DNA of 64,000 nucleotides from Edaphobacter dinghuensis (GTDB lineage Bacteria; Acidobacteriota; Terriglobia; Terriglobales; Acidobacteriaceae): assembly GCF_014640335.1 (NCBI RefSeq), contig NZ_BMGT01000003.1, forward strand, positions 355,149 to 419,148, read 5' to 3'. This document shows, one piece after another, positions 8,280 to 13,369 of the stretch; the stretch's first letter is position 1, and the number at the start of each line of letters is the position of its first letter. The position numbers and the translations under genes were made by a program. The notes below the pieces were generated by a model. That model ran no database searches and was not told where the DNA came from. It saw only the letters and a program-made list of their open reading frames with translations.

Positions 8280-11200
8280 TTAGAAGAGGAGCTTCAAGCC
8301 GAATTGGATTTGTCGCGAGCTGGTTGCGGTTGCGGTGATGACGCCGGCGGTGGGGCTGGCGACAACGGCTGCGGTCTGGTTGGCCAACGTTCCCTGCGTG
8401 GGTCCGGAGGAGAAGACGACCTCGTTGGGTGTGGCGAAGTTGGTGTGGTTGAGGATGTTGAAGAACTCGGCGCGGAATTGTGCGTGAACGTGTTCGCCGA
8501 GTTGGGTGGATTTGTGTAGCGATAGGTCGAGATTAGCCAAGCCGGGGCCGACGAGCGTGTCGCGGCCGAGGTTGCCGAAGGTTCCATAGGCCGGTGCGCT
8601 GAAGGCGGCGGCGTTGAAGAACTGCGTCGGCGTATGCGGGTAGAGGTTGCCGTGGAAGTTGGGGTTGATGTTGGGGCGGACGGGGTTGCGGGTGTCTCCG
8701 CTACCGGTGGGGTTGTAGCCGAGCTGCGGCGAGAAGGGGAAGCCGGACTGGATGGCTGCGATGGCGCTAAGCGTCCAGCCGCTGATGGCGCGGTTGGTGA
8801 GGCCGTTGAAGTTCGCGCCGAAGCGGTGGTCTGCGCCGAAGGGCAGATCGTAGGTACCGTTGATGGAGGCGAGGTTGCGGATGTCGCTGGCGGACGGGCC
8901 GTAGTCGAGGTTGGGGTTGGCGGGATACATGGTGAAGGCGGGCGTGTTGGCGCTGACGCTGGTGTTCCACGCGGAGCCGTTGTCGAGGTTCTTCGACCAG
9001 GTGTAGTTGCCGCGGATCTGGAAGCCGTTGGCGAAGCTGCGGTGCAGGTCGGCTTCGAGGGCGTTGTAGTTGCTGATGCCTCCGGAGATCCACGAGGTGG
9101 TGTTGGCTACGAGCGGGTTGGCCTTGGTGGTTGTCGGATAGTAGATGGTTCCGTTGACGAGAGTAGTGACGGGTTCGTTTAGGTCGGCGGAGAGGATTTG
9201 ATGGTAGCCGTGCGAGCCTACGTAGCCGACGGTGAGCGAGGTGTTGGGTGCGAGCTGCTGCTCGACGCGGAGGTTCCAGCTAAGGACCGTTGGAGTGTAG
9301 ATGTCGGTCTGAACGTTGGAGGGAGAGACGAGAGAGCTGGCCGATGGCTTGGTGTTGGCGGTGATGTTGAGGCTGGAAACGGGAACGTTCGAGAGCGAGA
9401 GCGTGGTGTTGTACGGGGCGGACTGGTCGAGGCGGTAGTCGAGGTTATCGAGCAGAGAGCGGTGGATGCCGAAGCCTGCGCGGACAGAGGTCTTGCCGTT
9501 GCCGAGGACGTCCCATGCGAGGCCGACGCGAGGCTCGGGGAGGAACCTGGCGCGGTTGGTGGTGAGGGCGGAGCTGCCTACAGTTGGCGTGGTGTTGATG
9601 ACGGCTAATCCACCAGGGCCTCCGGGGGTGAAGGCGTAGTTGGAGGCGCGGCCCTGTGCTTCGTTGAAGCCGTTGGTGGACTCGAAGCGGAAGCCTGCGC
9701 GGACCTCAAGGCGCGGCGTGAAGTGGATGGTGTCTTCGATGTAGCCTGCGCCCATGAAAGAGCGCCAGCCCAATTCAGTCGGCGCGGGAACTACGGTGAA
9801 GGTTTTGACGGTGCCCTGGAGGAAGGTTGCGAGCGAGGCGAAGGAGGCCTGACCGTACTGGTTCTGGGCGAGGTTGTCGTTCGATTGCAGACGCTGAATC
9901 CAGCCACCGGCTTCGATCTGGTGGCGACCGTGGGTCCAGAAGATGTGGTCGTCGAAGGTGAAGAGGTTGCGCGTGGTGGTGTTGTCGGAACCTACGTTGC
10001 CGCCTGCTCCGGTGATCTGCGATGAGCCGTTGGAGGCGGTGCTGCCTGCGATGACGATGGCTCCGATGGGCTTGCCTTCGACCCAGCCGGGAACATCAAC
10101 CGGTGTCGAGCCGAGGAAGAAGAAGGATGCGCGGGAGAAGCCGAAGCGCGCGGTGTTGAGAAGTTGCGGCGAGAAGACGTGCTGCTCCTGCGCGCTCAGG
10201 ACCTGTTCGCGGAGGCTCTCGTTGATGAGAGAGAGCGGATTTTGCGTGGGCGTGTTGGCGGTAGAGTCGTCGATGGTGTAGACGCTGAAGAAGAGATCTT
10301 TAGGGCTGATGTTGTAGTCGAAGCGTGTGGTGCCGAAGTCTTCGCGGATGTGCTGCATGGGGTTGGAGAAGGCTTCGGCGATGCCGCTACCCAGCTCGGG
10401 GCCGTTGGCTACGGGCCACAGTGCGAGCAGCGGTTTGACGCTGGCTACAGCGGCGGCGCGGCTGGCGTTGTCGGGAACGAGGGTGACGTCGGAGAGGCCG
10501 AGGTTCTGGCGGTAGCCTTCGTAGTTGGCGAAGAGGAGGAGCTTGTCCTTCTTGATGGGGCCGCCGAGCGAGCCGCCGAAGTTGTTGCGCTGGAACTCGG
10601 GGATGGTGGCCTGGTCGAAGTAGTTGCGGGCGTCGAGGGCGGAGTTGCGGATGAACTCGTAGGCGGAGCCGTGCAGTTTATTTGTGCCTGATGCGGTTAC
10701 GATTGAGATCTGCGCGCCTTGGCGCTTGCCGTAGCTGGAGGAGTAGGTGTCGCTGACGACGTTGAACTCGCGCACGGCGTCGACGCCGAGGAGCTGGCCG
10801 CTGGTGCCGCCGGGAGTGACGTTGATGAGCGAGGCTCCGGTGTACTCGATGCCGTTGAGCAGAAAGAGATTGTCTTGTGGGCGGCGGCCGGAGATGGCAA
10901 ACATATTGCCAACCGAAGAATTTGAAGTGCCGATGGTGCCGGAGCGCTGGCCGGTGTAGTTGACGACGCCGGGGTTGAGGGTGATGAGCTGGTCGTAGCT
11001 GCGGCCGTTGAGGGGAAGCTGCTTGATCTGGCGTTCGTCGACCAGACCGGAGGTCTCCTGCGTCGAGGTGTTGACGACGGAGGGCGCGTCCTGCACCGTG
11101 ACCTGCTGCGCCACCGAATCGAGCGAGAGAGTGAGGTCGATCTGCTTGCTCTGGCCTACGGTGAGCGGGATGCCGATGCGGTGCGCGGGGCTGAAGCCCG

Positions 11201-11462
11201 CGAGCTCTGCGCTGATGGTGTAGGTGCCTACGGGGATGGAGGGCGCGGAGTAGCGGCCGTCGGATGCGGTGGTGAGGTTGCGCTCGTTGCCGGTTTCGTC
11301 GTTATGGACGAGGACTTTTGCGTTGGCCAGGGCGGCGCCAGTCGAATCGGTAACAGTGCCGGAGATGGTGCCGCCGACGATCTGCGCGTGCGCGGAGATA
11401 GCGAGAGAGATCGTCAGGATTGTGACGACGAGGGGGAGTTTTTTAGTGATGAAGTGATACAT
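8280..11462 (-). CDS. TonB-dependent receptor, Oar-like, with carboxypeptidase-regulatory domain
   Basis: An outer-membrane beta-barrel receptor for energy-dependent uptake of a large or scarce ligand. The 1060 residues comprise a signal peptide ending AISAHA (about 26), a carboxypeptidase-regulatory-like Ig-type fold (about 30-115, GTISGTVTDSTGAALANAKV), a plug (about 120-260, LPLNGRSYDQLITLNPGVV) and a barrel ending in FGLKLLF with the terminal Phe used by the Bam machinery. This architecture is greatly expanded in Acidobacteriota and its ligands are mostly unknown. It is preceded 100 nt upstream by a four-cysteine leader peptide that overlaps the end of a YeiH-type gene, so a sulfur-containing ligand or sulfur-regulated expression is a reasonable inference. 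TCTGGAG lies upstream of the ATG, close to the palindrome AGGAGCGCTCCT. Confidence 0.92.
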   Translation of the reverse strand: MYHFITKKLPLVVTILTISLAISAHAQIVGGTISGTVTDSTGAALANAKVLVHNDETGNERNLTTASDGRYSAPSIPVGTYTISAELAGFSPAHRIGIPLTVGQSKQIDLTLSLDSVAQQVTVQDAPSVVNTSTQETSGLVDERQIKQLPLNGRSYDQLITLNPGVVNYTGQRSGTIGTSNSSVGNMFAISGRRPQDNLFLLNGIEYTGASLINVTPGGTSGQLLGVDAVREFNVVSDTYSSSYGKRQGAQISIVTASGTNKLHGSAYEFIRNSALDARNYFDQATIPEFQRNNFGGSLGGPIKKDKLLLFANYEGYRQNLGLSDVTLVPDNASRAAAVASVKPLLALWPVANGPELGSGIAEAFSNPMQHIREDFGTTRFDYNISPKDLFFSVYTIDDSTANTPTQNPLSLINESLREQVLSAQEQHVFSPQLLNTARFGFSRASFFFLGSTPVDVPGWVEGKPIGAIVIAGSTASNGSSQITGAGGNVGSDNTTTRNLFTFDDHIFWTHGRHQIEAGGWIQRLQSNDNLAQNQYGQASFASLATFLQGTVKTFTVVPAPTELGWRSFMGAGYIEDTIHFTPRLEVRAGFRFESTNGFNEAQGRASNYAFTPGGPGGLAVINTTPTVGSSALTTNRARFLPEPRVGLAWDVLGNGKTSVRAGFGIHRSLLDNLDYRLDQSAPYNTTLSLSNVPVSSLNITANTKPSASSLVSPSNVQTDIYTPTVLSWNLRVEQQLAPNTSLTVGYVGSHGYHQILSADLNEPVTTLVNGTIYYPTTTKANPLVANTTSWISGGISNYNALEADLHRSFANGFQIRGNYTWSKNLDNGSAWNTSVSANTPAFTMYPANPNLDYGPSASDIRNLASINGTYDLPFGADHRFGANFNGLTNRAISGWTLSAIAAIQSGFPFSPQLGYNPTGSGDTRNPVRPNINPNFHGNLYPHTPTQFFNAAAFSAPAYGTFGNLGRDTLVGPGLANLDLSLHKSTQLGEHVHAQFRAEFFNILNHTNFATPNEVVFSSGPTQGTLANQTAAVVASPTAGVITATATSSRQIQFGLKLLF

Positions 11463-11562: not shown

Positions 11563-11613
11563 TTAGGCGCAACAACAACAGCTTTGAAGGGCGAGGCTAA
11601 CGGTGGTCATCAT
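11563..11613 (-). CDS. Four-cysteine leader peptide before the TonB receptor
   Basis: A 16-codon frame read directly from sequence: MMTTVSLALQSCCCCA then stop. The four Cys codons are TGT TGT TGT TGC. Its ATG overlaps the yeiH stop codon, and a good ribosome site (GGAG, 7 nt spacing) lies inside the yeiH 3' end, which suggests translational coupling. The Cys-codon region GTTGCGC (11567-11573) can pair with GCGCAAC (complement of 11519-11525) further down the leader, so a ribosome paused at the Cys codons would change the fold. This is the expected anatomy of a regulatory uORF sensing charged tRNA-Cys for the receptor gene 100 nt downstream. Function is inferred; a chance ORF is the alternative. 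Confidence 0.6.
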   Translation of the reverse strand: MMTTVSLALQSCCCCA

Positions 11614-12707
11614 TGGATTGCTCCGTGGCGGTAGCTCCAGTAGACGAGGCCGAGGGTGACTAATGCGATGAAGATTTCGCCGAGGATACCGACGATGAGA
11701 GGACGCCAGCCCTGGCCGACGAGATCTCTTAAATTGGTGCGCACACCGACTCCGGCAAAGGCGGGAAGGAAGGCCCAGCGGGAGAGGTTGGAAAGGCTGT
11801 TGAGCTGTCCGTGGGTGAAGAACCCAGAGGTCGCGAGGACCGAGATAGCGATGAAGCCGAGGACGAACTTGGGGAACTTCTGCCAGAGGAAGAGGGCTTT
11901 GTTTTCGACGGCGGCGGCTTGTCCCTGCGATGCCCAGTAGACGGCGTAACCGAGGACGACGAAGCCGAGGAAGGACGAACGCGCTGTTTTGGAGAGCACG
12001 GCGAAGCGTCCGGCGGCGTCGCCGTAGATGGCTCCGGTAACGGTGGCTTCGGCAGTGTTGTCGACGGCGAGGCCGGCCCAGATGCCGTAGGACTGCTGGC
12101 TCATGTGGAGCGCGTGGCCGATGGCAGGGAAGGTGAAGAGGGCGATGGCGCCGAGGGTGAGGATGGCTGCCATGGCGGTGGAGGTGTCCTCTTCGCTGGA
12201 GTCGATGGCTCCCTGCGTGGCCATGATGGCGGTGACGCCGCAGACGCTGCTGCCGATGGAGAGCAGGCTGGTGAGTTTGGGCGGCAGCTTGAAGATGCGG
12301 CCAAGCAAAGTCATGACGGTGAGCGAGAGGACAAGCTCAATGGCGACGAGGACGAGGGTCATGCCGCCGATGTGGAAGAGGTCCTGCATGAGGAAGCGGG
12401 CGCCGATGAGGACGATGCCGAGTTTGAGCCAGAGCTCGTAGGTGGCGACGCCGGGCTGGAAGATGCGGGCGACGCCGAAGGTGTTGCTGATGACGAGGCC
12501 GAGGATGATGGCCCAGAGAACGTACTCGATGTGGGGAAGGAGCCAGGTGGGATGTTCAGCGTGGAGGACGGCGAAGGTGTGCTCGAAGACTTTACCCAGA
12601 AGACCAACGCCGAAGAGCAGCGCCATGCCTGGAATCGTTTTAACGAAACGTGAGGCAGGGGAAGAAGCCGGACTGGCGGTCGGGTTGGGTAAAGTATGGG
12701 CGGACAT
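11610..12707 (-). CDS. yeiH: YeiH-type putative sulfate exporter family protein
   Basis: A polytopic inner-membrane protein of the YeiH family (PF03601 type, putative sulfate exporters), proposed to move sulfate or related anions; the direction of transport is not settled for most members. The start chosen is ATG 12707 (MSAHTLPNP), giving 365 residues. An open frame extends 70 codons upstream, but that part is Arg/His-rich and overlaps a separate small gene in another frame. Helices begin at FVKTIPGMALLFGVGLLG. Family-like stretches include YELWLKLGIVLIGARFL, IGSSVCGVTAIMATQGAI and AVDNTAEATVTGAIYGD, and the C-terminus is LRDLVGQGWRPLIVGILGE. It lies 23 nt after a 47-residue membrane protein and behind a Cys-rich leader with terminator, which supports a sulfur role. 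Confidence 0.85.
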   Translation of the reverse strand: MSAHTLPNPTASPASSPASRFVKTIPGMALLFGVGLLGKVFEHTFAVLHAEHPTWLLPHIEYVLWAIILGLVISNTFGVARIFQPGVATYELWLKLGIVLIGARFLMQDLFHIGGMTLVLVAIELVLSLTVMTLLGRIFKLPPKLTSLLSIGSSVCGVTAIMATQGAIDSSEEDTSTAMAAILTLGAIALFTFPAIGHALHMSQQSYGIWAGLAVDNTAEATVTGAIYGDAAGRFAVLSKTARSSFLGFVVLGYAVYWASQGQAAAVENKALFLWQKFPKFVLGFIAISVLATSGFFTHGQLNSLSNLSRWAFLPAFAGVGVRTNLRDLVGQGWRPLIVGILGEIFIALVTLGLVYWSYRHGAIQ

Positions 12708-12730: not shown

Positions 12731-12874
12731 CTAGAAGGGGATGGAAGGAATGATGTTGAAGCGGATGAGGGCGGCGAGCGCGAGGGCAATGGTTACAGCG
12801 ATGAGATCGACATTGATGGACAGTCTGCTGGCGGCGTGCGGTCTGGTTGGTGTCTGGTTCTGCGAGCTTGCCAT
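12731..12874 (-). CDS. 47-residue single-helix membrane protein
   Basis: A small gene read directly from the minus strand: it begins MASSQNQTPTRPHAASRL, continues with a hydrophobic stretch (VDLIAVTIALALAALIRF), and ends NIIPSIPF. A strong AGGAG lies 8 nt before the ATG, better than the site of yeiH itself, whose start follows 23 nt after this stop. The layout (soluble polar N-terminus, one helix of about 18-20 residues, short tail) fits a small inner-membrane partner of the transporter downstream. It sits just after the terminator that follows the Cys-rich leader, so it would be the first structural gene of the operon. I know of no named family for it. Confidence 0.72.
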   Translation of the reverse strand: MASSQNQTPTRPHAASRLSINVDLIAVTIALALAALIRFNIIPSIPF

Positions 12875-12900: not shown

Positions 12901-12946
12901 GAAAAAGAAAAACCCACGTATCGCGATCTACGCTGATACGTGGGTT
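12901..12946 (-). terminator. Intrinsic terminator / putative attenuator before yeiH operon
   Basis: Minus strand: AACCCACGTATC (12946-12935), 12-nt loop, GATACGTGGGTT (12922-12911), then TTTCTTTTTC. It is a 12-bp perfect stem with a T-tract, placed 36 nt after the stop of the Cys-rich leader and only 27 nt before the first structural gene. A terminator inside what should be an operon leader is best explained as an attenuator. I could not identify a convincing antiterminator pairing by eye. Confidence 0.8.
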
Positions 12947-12982
12947 CCTTGAAGTGTCTAAGCTTGAGTTCGTTCTATTCGC

Positions 12983-13066
12983 TTAGGTCTGGGAAGATCC
13001 AACGCAGCAGCCATTGCCCATACAACAGAGGCAACAGGTACAAGCTGCGATGTGCATCAATCCCAT
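12983..13066 (-). CDS. Cysteine-rich leader peptide (27 residues, 7 Cys)
   Basis: The frame starts MGLMHI and contains AACTCCLCCMGNGCC before a short tail VGSSQT and TAA. Seven of 27 codons are Cys, in CxCC, CC and CC groups. There is no Shine-Dalgarno sequence; a promoter with -35 TTGACG and -10 TAACCT places the predicted transcript start at the ATG itself, so it would be a leaderless message. A second ATG at codon 4 is possible. Downstream lie a strong terminator, then a small membrane protein and a YeiH-type gene. By analogy with classic amino-acid attenuators and with poly-Cys uORFs of mycobacterial sulfur genes, it probably senses Cys-tRNA supply. The role is inferred. Confidence 0.65.
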   Translation of the reverse strand: MGLMHIAACTCCLCCMGNGCCVGSSQT

Positions 13067-13369
13067 GAAGTGAGGTTAGATGGTTTGGGCGGTGGCGTCA
13101 AGTTTTGAGGAAGAAGATGTAGTATTTACTGCGACTTAAAGAGGAAACCCACGCAGCGCGGTGGGGGCTGTTGCGTGGGTATTCCGGTAAAGCAACGAAG
13201 TGGGTGGACTTCGTTATGACCGACTCAACCCGAAGGGAGTCCTGCCACCCCTTTAAGGTAAAGCGAAAGGGTGGCAGAGTCAAGGGAGATTTGAAATGCA
13301 CGGAAGTACATGATTTCGCTTGAGATACTTTCAGAAATCAGCCTTCGCAATATGGCCCTGAAGGCTGGT
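13067..13369. other. Hairpin-rich intergenic region downstream of pckG
   Basis: 303 nt without a gene beyond the leader promoter. Four hairpins stand in series: 13242-13277 (CTGCCACCC with GGGTGGCAG, one bulge), 13222-13241 (GACTC/GAGTC), 13194-13215 (AACGAAGT/ACTTCGTT, 8 bp) and 13147-13180 (ACCCACGCA/TGCGTGGGT, 9 bp). Read on the minus strand the last is followed by TTCCTCTTT, so it is the likely pckG terminator. The others may form a structured 3' UTR. Confidence 0.55.
13073..13101 (-). promoter_or_regulatory. Predicted sigma-70-type promoter of the leader/yeiH operon
   Basis: -35 TTGACG (13101-13096), a 17-bp spacer and -10 TAACCT (13078-13073) on the minus strand. Six nt later the sequence reaches the leader ATG at 13066, which predicts leaderless translation. 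Confidence 0.5.

Follow-up and report, generated by a model that had tools for sequence, protein, structure and literature searches.

A predicted cysteine-responsive transcription attenuator upstream of a YeiH-like gene in Edaphobacter dinghuensis and related bacteria

The region upstream of a YeiH-like gene of Edaphobacter dinghuensis very probably acts as a ribosome-mediated, cysteine-responsive transcription attenuator which, as modelled here, would control a small membrane ORF and the YeiH-like gene, and probably also an outer-membrane gene. It lies in an analyzed stretch of 64,000 nucleotides, referred to as the window. Conservation of the leader, covariation of its helices, alternative folds and gene associations were established by computation. 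An attenuator sensing Cys-tRNA or sulfur supply had been put forward in the original prediction, and codon conservation, a terminator, an antiterminator and the sulfur-gene context argue for this reading at the sequence level. The following features were assigned:

13096-13101, minus strand: -35 element TTGACG, read in the sequence; TTGAC at the right distance in 33/34 leaders
13073-13078, minus strand: -10 element TAACCT, 6 nt upstream of the ATG
12983-13066, minus strand: Cys-rich leader ORF with ATG start, 27 aa with 7 Cys, translating to MGLMHIAACTCCLCCMGNGCCVGSSQT
13007-13041, minus strand: protector hairpin P1 (arm swap, RNAalifold, covariation)
12994-13011, minus strand: antiterminator 5' arm, i.e., the second Cys cluster GCTGCTGCGTTGG and the bases after it (folding, arm swap)
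12958-12986, minus strand: hairpin P2, CTAAGC/GCTTAG around the stop codon (arm swap, covariation)
12902-12947, minus strand: intrinsic terminator with T tract (sequence, folding energy, covariation)
12931-12947, minus strand: terminator 5' arm and part of the loop (GAACCCACGTATCAGCG), doubling as the antiterminator 3' arm (covariation)
12731-12874, minus strand: hydrophobic ORF of 47 aa, conserved between leader and YeiH-like gene
11610-12707, minus strand: YeiH-like transporter gene (PF03601), start assumed at ATG 12707
8280-11462, minus strand: outer-membrane beta-barrel gene with CarboxypepD_reg domain (PF25183), 147 bp past the YeiH-like gene

With regard to the transcription start, ribosome stalling and the direction of the response, we infer the following course. 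The ribosome would initiate on the leaderless AUG of the Cys-rich leader. When charged Cys-tRNA is scarce, it would stall at the first Cys cluster and prevent P1; the freed second Cys cluster would pair with the terminator 5' arm, with P2 nested inside, and RNA polymerase would read through. When cysteine is ample, the ribosome would reach the stop codon, break P2 and crowd the second cluster, and the terminator would form. In the absence of translation, P1 would tend to sequester the second cluster, leaving the terminator free in most, but not all, species. The window element would be one member of a larger group of Cys leaders that precede sulfur genes.

Translation of positions 13066-12983 confirmed the minus-strand frame of 27 residues with seven Cys codons that had been described earlier. 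Upstream of it, the promoter layout is TTGACG, 17 nt, TAACCT, 6 nt and the leader ATG; a simple scanner listed no consensus promoter in the leader region. This spacing would yield a leaderless transcript, as had been suggested.

The conservation of the leader was analyzed in related genomes. In a first search of 41 genomes, YeiH-like loci were present in 28, and all 11 close orthologue loci carried a Cys-rich frame ahead of that gene. Named genomes (Edaphobacter, Granulicella, Terriglobus, Bryocella, Paracidobacterium and relatives) were scanned as well and gave 40 loci; a Cys-rich ORF preceded the YeiH-like gene in 35 of them, with a GTG start in L042. The five loci without a leader were L041, L063 and three titled Deltaproteobacteria, Bacillota and Firmicutes. 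In L041 (2386-4131), the leader-free YeiH-like gene lies directly past an APS kinase gene (PF01583), which links the family to sulfate assimilation; the locus was rejected as a leader-bearing sulfate operon, since the APS kinase gene precedes the YeiH-like gene but no Cys leader was detected.

After removal of the near-duplicates L036, L054 and L055, a non-redundant set of 34 leaders was obtained. The motif CCxCC was kept in 33 of them, although the peptides otherwise diverge (MGLMHIAACTCCLCC..., MKQIHTAAFCCMCC..., MTLCRSAAAICCICC...); since the Cys codons double as helix bases, this conservation is not fully separable from that of RNA structure. The conservation of Cys codons in relatives had been named as a check on the attenuator, and its outcome favours that reading. 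TTGAC-N17/N18-TAnnnT was located 6-11 nt upstream of the start codon in 33/34 leaders; for the exception, L043, inspection by eye suggested that the start is probably an upstream GTG. The leaders contained 166 TGT and 105 TGC codons, as compared to 1 TGT and 18 TGC in 15 yeiH-like genes. Thus, the leaders use a codon avoided by the structural genes. As expected of an attenuator, the operon is preceded by a short ORF in which the regulatory codon is frequent.

The terminator stem (GAACCCACGTATC.../...GATACGTGGGTTT) has a predicted energy of -24.5 kcal/mol and is followed by a T tract. The terminator of the original prediction was thus recovered, whereas its distance to the leader was corrected from 36 nt to 35 nt past the stop codon. 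The simple scanner listed a short version only (12926-12914). A terminator-like hairpin was found 21-43 nt past the stop codon in 37 of 37 leaders examined, in a search without background control. Covariation was analyzed in an alignment of the 34 leaders (A3) against 500 shuffles, in which kinship among the sequences remains. For the terminator, 86.6% of cells were paired and six pairs were changed on both sides (0/500 shuffles); for P2, 67.0% of cells were paired (0/500 shuffles), and swapping its arms between species gave 0/20000. Thus, an intrinsic terminator with compensatory changes is conserved between leader and first gene, as the proposed check of the relatives' intergenic regions had anticipated. 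No Rfam family matched the leader above its gathering score: the matches in the window were two tRNAs only, and around the leader there was a single chance hit at E 2.3.

P1 comprises a 5' arm with the first Cys cluster, a TGTTGT loop and an outer stem that extends into the second Cys cluster. In the 34 leaders, 97.1% of its cells were paired (0/500 shuffles), the structure having been drawn by RNAalifold from the same alignment, and the arm swap between species gave 0/20000. In all, RNAalifold predicted 16 pairs on A3, seven of them with double changes. Since the P1 arms are shifted by one position between two clades, P1 is partly misplaced in the A3 column counts. We propose that P1, which holds the first Cys cluster, competes with the antiterminator for the second.

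The alternative structure that had been missed in the original prediction was identified as a helix between GCTGYYGCG... (the second Cys cluster) and CCCACGYnnCAGC (the 5' arm of the terminator). In the 34 leaders, 84.2% of its cells were paired, and 5/500 shuffles were as high. Its double changes were weak, being equalled by shuffles in 77/500 cases when counted by pairs and in 62/500 by cells (covariation score, 10/500). With a fixed window, defined post hoc after the pairing had been seen, native arms paired better than swapped ones (15/20000 and, after adjustment of the anchors of L053 and L067, 18/100000); with free register, the arm swap was not significant (2715/20000). Native leader segments paired better than shuffled ones (-17.9 vs. 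-15.0, sd 0.5). In L042 and L067, both antiterminator arms are altered with pairing kept, as judged by eye.

In order to model ribosome positions, nascent RNA was folded from the AUG to just short of the terminator 3' arm, with the ribosome footprint as an unpaired stretch. For the window leader, a ribosome at Cys 1 to 4 gave 9-11 antiterminator pairs with P2 nested within them, and 0 pairs were predicted without a ribosome or with a ribosome at the stop codon. When the ribosome was stalled at Cys 1, 2, 3 or 4, at least five antiterminator pairs were predicted in 33, 31, 32 and 32 of the 34 species, respectively; this was the case in 5/34 for a ribosome on the stop codon and in 14/34 without a ribosome. 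This result was unchanged across three footprint sizes. By folding, antiterminator and terminator exclude each other and are set by the ribosome in 31-33 of 34 species, as in an attenuator, with weak covariation of the antiterminator helix itself. Synonymous randomization of the leader lowered the pairs in the stalled state from 9.82 to 6.92 (40 sets; sd 0.41, highest 7.76) and the contrast between the stalled and the unoccupied state from 5.68 to 1.47. In equilibrium folds, the full-length terminator was dominant in almost every leader, with or without a stalled ribosome. Thus, the switch must be kinetic and decided during transcription, as it is in known attenuators.

Outside the leader, positions 13131-13270 (minus strand), past a pckG-like gene, contain multiple hairpins together with a CCCACGCAACAG...CTGCGTGGG terminator. 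By eye, this stretch is nearly identical in L001, L002, L006, L009 and L024, with divergent flanks. It occurs as a single copy in this genome, had no Rfam match and is possibly a conserved 3' UTR RNA.

A second leader type was found on YeiH-like paralogues, a set of 15 loci (L011-L023, L029, L030) with genes about 60% identical. Upstream of the YeiH-like gene in 11 of them (L012-L018, L020-L022, L030), a short ORF ends in CCC plus 0-4 residues, e.g., MTVFRQPAPLHLMPTRCCCS, as compared to a background of 55/3000 windows. L018 encodes CCCRCCC with a weak hairpin only, the Cys-ending ORFs of L011 and L019 are weaker, and none was found upstream of the YeiH-like gene in L023 and L029. No CCxCC leader with a strong terminator was found in the paralogue loci, the best hairpin reaching -12.3 kcal/mol (L020). 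In several of these leaders, a -10-like box (TACACT, TATAAT) was seen by eye 8-10 nt ahead of the ATG.

Cys leaders were also searched for ahead of other genes, using the pattern of a leaderless promoter, ATG and CCxCC codons in 200 genomes of the window's family. The pattern was found in 47/200 genomes vs. 8/200 for the reversed control (controls counted by eye). The 39 distinct pattern ORFs in the retrieved loci were followed by genes for sulfite reductase (18), CysD (4), siroheme (4), CysH (1), ThiF-rhodanese (1), YeiH-like proteins (2) and outer-membrane receptors (3), and by none recognised in six cases; representatives were checked with Pfam and NCBIfam. The sulfite reductases scored under the NCBIfam cut-offs, and the models alone cannot separate them from nitrite reductase; sulfite reductase is favoured because siroheme and CysH genes adjoin. 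Among the best-scoring 30 sulfite reductase loci of a 100-genome search, 20 had a Cys-rich short ORF upstream, with a background of 199 in 4000 windows of 350 nt (about 5%, leaders not excluded). Since sulfite reductase, CysD, CysH and siroheme genes carry Cys-rich leaders, the sulfur link claimed earlier is direct.

The E. dinghuensis genome possesses the leader MANLCASRCCMCCCDAARLRLCPAS upstream of sir and siroheme genes (L102), MASPVICACCCCRMVFACCPR upstream of genes matching cysD, cysN and cysH (L151:286-351; G000:C4:307185) and MTMDTMPLICCCSCCEQAQLRG upstream of another outer-membrane receptor (L101). The L151 leader has no clear T-tract terminator and may work differently. In L101:639-5002 (G000:C1, about 133.1-137.5 kb), the receptor with Cys leader and terminator is followed by an ORF for a xylose-isomerase-like TIM barrel. 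Of the 31 labelled pattern ORFs (the two YeiH and the six unrecognised ones being unlabelled), 28 were folded; L077, L084 and L112, without a terminator below -9 kcal/mol, were left out. The antiterminator formed in 27/28 with an early stall (best of four stalls), in 10/28 for a ribosome on the stop codon and in 13/28 without a ribosome. By these folds, the contrast between stall and stop would be present but weaker than in the YeiH-like leaders.

The gene order downstream of the window's leader refined the operon. The 47-aa ORF had no match in Pfam or NCBIfam; weaker homologues (E 2e-5 to 0.003) were found upstream of 10 YeiH-like paralogues, and it may encode a small partner of the transporter. 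Of the YeiH operon claimed originally, the PF03601 homologue held, whereas the protein remained below the cut-off of NCBIfam TIGR00698 (YeiH putative sulfate exporter; 108.9 vs. 232.6 bits), as did those of three relatives (107.9 to 116). The outer-membrane protein is probably TonB-dependent-receptor-like; no Plug domain was detected in it. Its gene followed the YeiH-like gene in 24 leader loci, out of 32 that extended downstream by 1 kb or more, and the operon would consist of the small membrane ORF, the YeiH-like gene and the receptor-like gene. The latter was absent from four leader-free named loci, those that extended far enough. In the paralogue loci, two distant receptor matches only (about 30%) were found in about 1.5 kb of covered downstream sequence (less in L021 and L023). 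The YeiH-like gene is the constant partner of cysteine control, because the paralogues, too, carry Cys leaders yet lack this receptor. L077 and L103 contain receptors 63-67% identical to that of the window, with their own Cys leader and with a YeiH-like gene absent from the stretch covered.

The presence of an outer-membrane receptor, combined with induction when cysteine is scarce, would fit sulfur uptake, and a sulfite safety valve appears about as likely. According to the latter possibility, which concerns the operon's function and not the switch and falls only slightly short of an even chance, the YeiH-like protein would be co-induced with sulfate assimilation so that surplus sulfite is disposed of, and would not serve uptake. 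This is consistent with the requirement of Salmonella YeiH for sulfite resistance, as stated in the available part of PMC12880088, and with L041, where a second YeiH-like gene comes after the APS kinase gene. By contrast, the receptor-like gene after the YeiH-like gene in 24/32 loci fits uptake, as do its relatives in L077 and L103 with a Cys leader and without a YeiH-like gene. If the YeiH-like protein exported sulfite, induction by cysteine shortage would be a non-obvious choice.

As for the switch itself, it is unlikely that the leader chiefly regulates how the following ORF is translated, with the hairpin being an ordinary terminator or processing site. The CCC-ending paralogue leaders without a strong terminator would suit such control, and mycobacterial leaderless polycysteine ORFs regulate downstream translation according to the accessible text of PMC9031893 and PMC13236596. 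In the window's type, however, the intrinsic terminator is conserved between leader and first gene, and the antiterminator overlaps the terminator 5' arm rather than the site where the next ORF begins. For this leader type, the conserved terminator points to transcription. It is very unlikely that the Cys-rich peptide is itself the sensor, by metal binding or oxidant response, in the manner of the copper-responsive Cys-rich leader peptides of the CruR type. The Cys clusters are dense and conserved, as such a sensor would have them, but their spacing and neighbouring residues vary widely among the leaders while the CC pairs stay. Moreover, most of the targets that could be recognised serve sulfate assimilation, none of the genes beside a leader was recognised as a metal gene, and an RNA switch accounts for the data without peptide chemistry. 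A chance Cys-rich frame ahead of an ordinary terminator, although loosely defined Cys-rich short ORFs do occur in about 5% of 350-nt windows, was ruled out for practical purposes by the leader's presence in 35/40 loci and the covariation, and does not fit the sulfur-gene context.

In the trp and his attenuators, a protector (1:2), an antiterminator (2:3) and a terminator (3:4) are formed from four regions, with the regulatory codons in region 1. The attenuator predicted here shares this four-region layout. It would differ by its leaderless start, the stop-codon hairpin inside the antiterminator, the sensing of Cys, and transport and sulfate-assimilation targets.

Closest in mechanism is uORFC-8-2 upstream of cysS in Rhodobacterales, a predicted transcription attenuator as far as PMC8632094 is available. 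Going by that account, tandem Cys codons in the first stem, an intrinsic terminator and predicted read-through upon stalling are common to both. uORFC-8-2 belongs to another phylum, precedes a cysteinyl-tRNA synthetase gene and has two Cys codons, as compared to 4-11 in the acidobacterial leaders; the stop-codon hairpin and the predicted leaderless start are acidobacterial features not described for it in the available part of PMC8632094. The window leader would work like uORFC-8-2 and is not a member of it, because its downstream gene is YeiH-like and not cysS.

Mycobacterial leaderless polycysteine short ORFs are located upstream of sulfur genes (Canestrari et al. 2020, as presented in the available parts of PMC9031893, PMC9094748 and PMC13236596). 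Judging from these texts, both systems have consecutive Cys codons before sulfur genes and a proposed response to cysteine supply. The leaderless start is described there for mycobacteria, and for the window's type it is suggested by the promoter spacing in 33/34 leaders. The phylum is another, and the window's type has an intrinsic terminator and an antiterminator, whereas the mycobacterial ORFs, as those sources present them, control translation; the CCC-ending paralogue leaders look closest to the latter. Actinobacterial cys operons likewise have leader peptides with Cys runs before cysteine-biosynthesis operons. As far as the accessible text of PMC1262725 goes, a conserved terminator hairpin was not found there and the mode was unknown, whereas terminator and competitor are conserved in the window's type. 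With Cys runs near the stop codon and without a terminator, the paralogue leaders resemble this actinobacterial form as that text presents it.

Attenuators have been predicted in phyla such as Acidobacteria, almost none of them with an associated function according to PMC2965389, and PMC3160421 reports leaderless genes, 13.3% on average, in each of the three Acidobacteria genomes that it covered. As the original prediction had stated, no description of an acidobacterial cysteine attenuator was found in the literature searched, the coverage of which excluded most subscription papers. This kind of leader is known from mycobacteria and Rhodobacterales cysS; the phylum, the architecture and the gene set are new.

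A wider proposal is made tentatively, as somewhat less probable than an even chance. In Acidobacteriaceae, much of the sulfur regulon would be controlled in cis by leaderless Cys leaders. Two architectures, distributed over sister clades of the YeiH-like transporter, would be in use: CCxCC leaders with a four-region terminator switch and CCC-stop leaders lacking a strong terminator; at the same time, YeiH-like protein, small membrane protein and receptor would form an importer of sulfur compounds, opposite to the exporter annotation. With the present analysis, Acidobacteria gain a fully drawn predicted attenuator and a candidate cysteine regulon. In the window's type, an intrinsic-terminator switch would be joined to a leaderless polycysteine ORF, and sister genes may show two solutions. 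Co-regulation and the adjoining outer-membrane gene give reason to ask whether this widespread, poorly characterised transporter family serves import or export of sulfur compounds.
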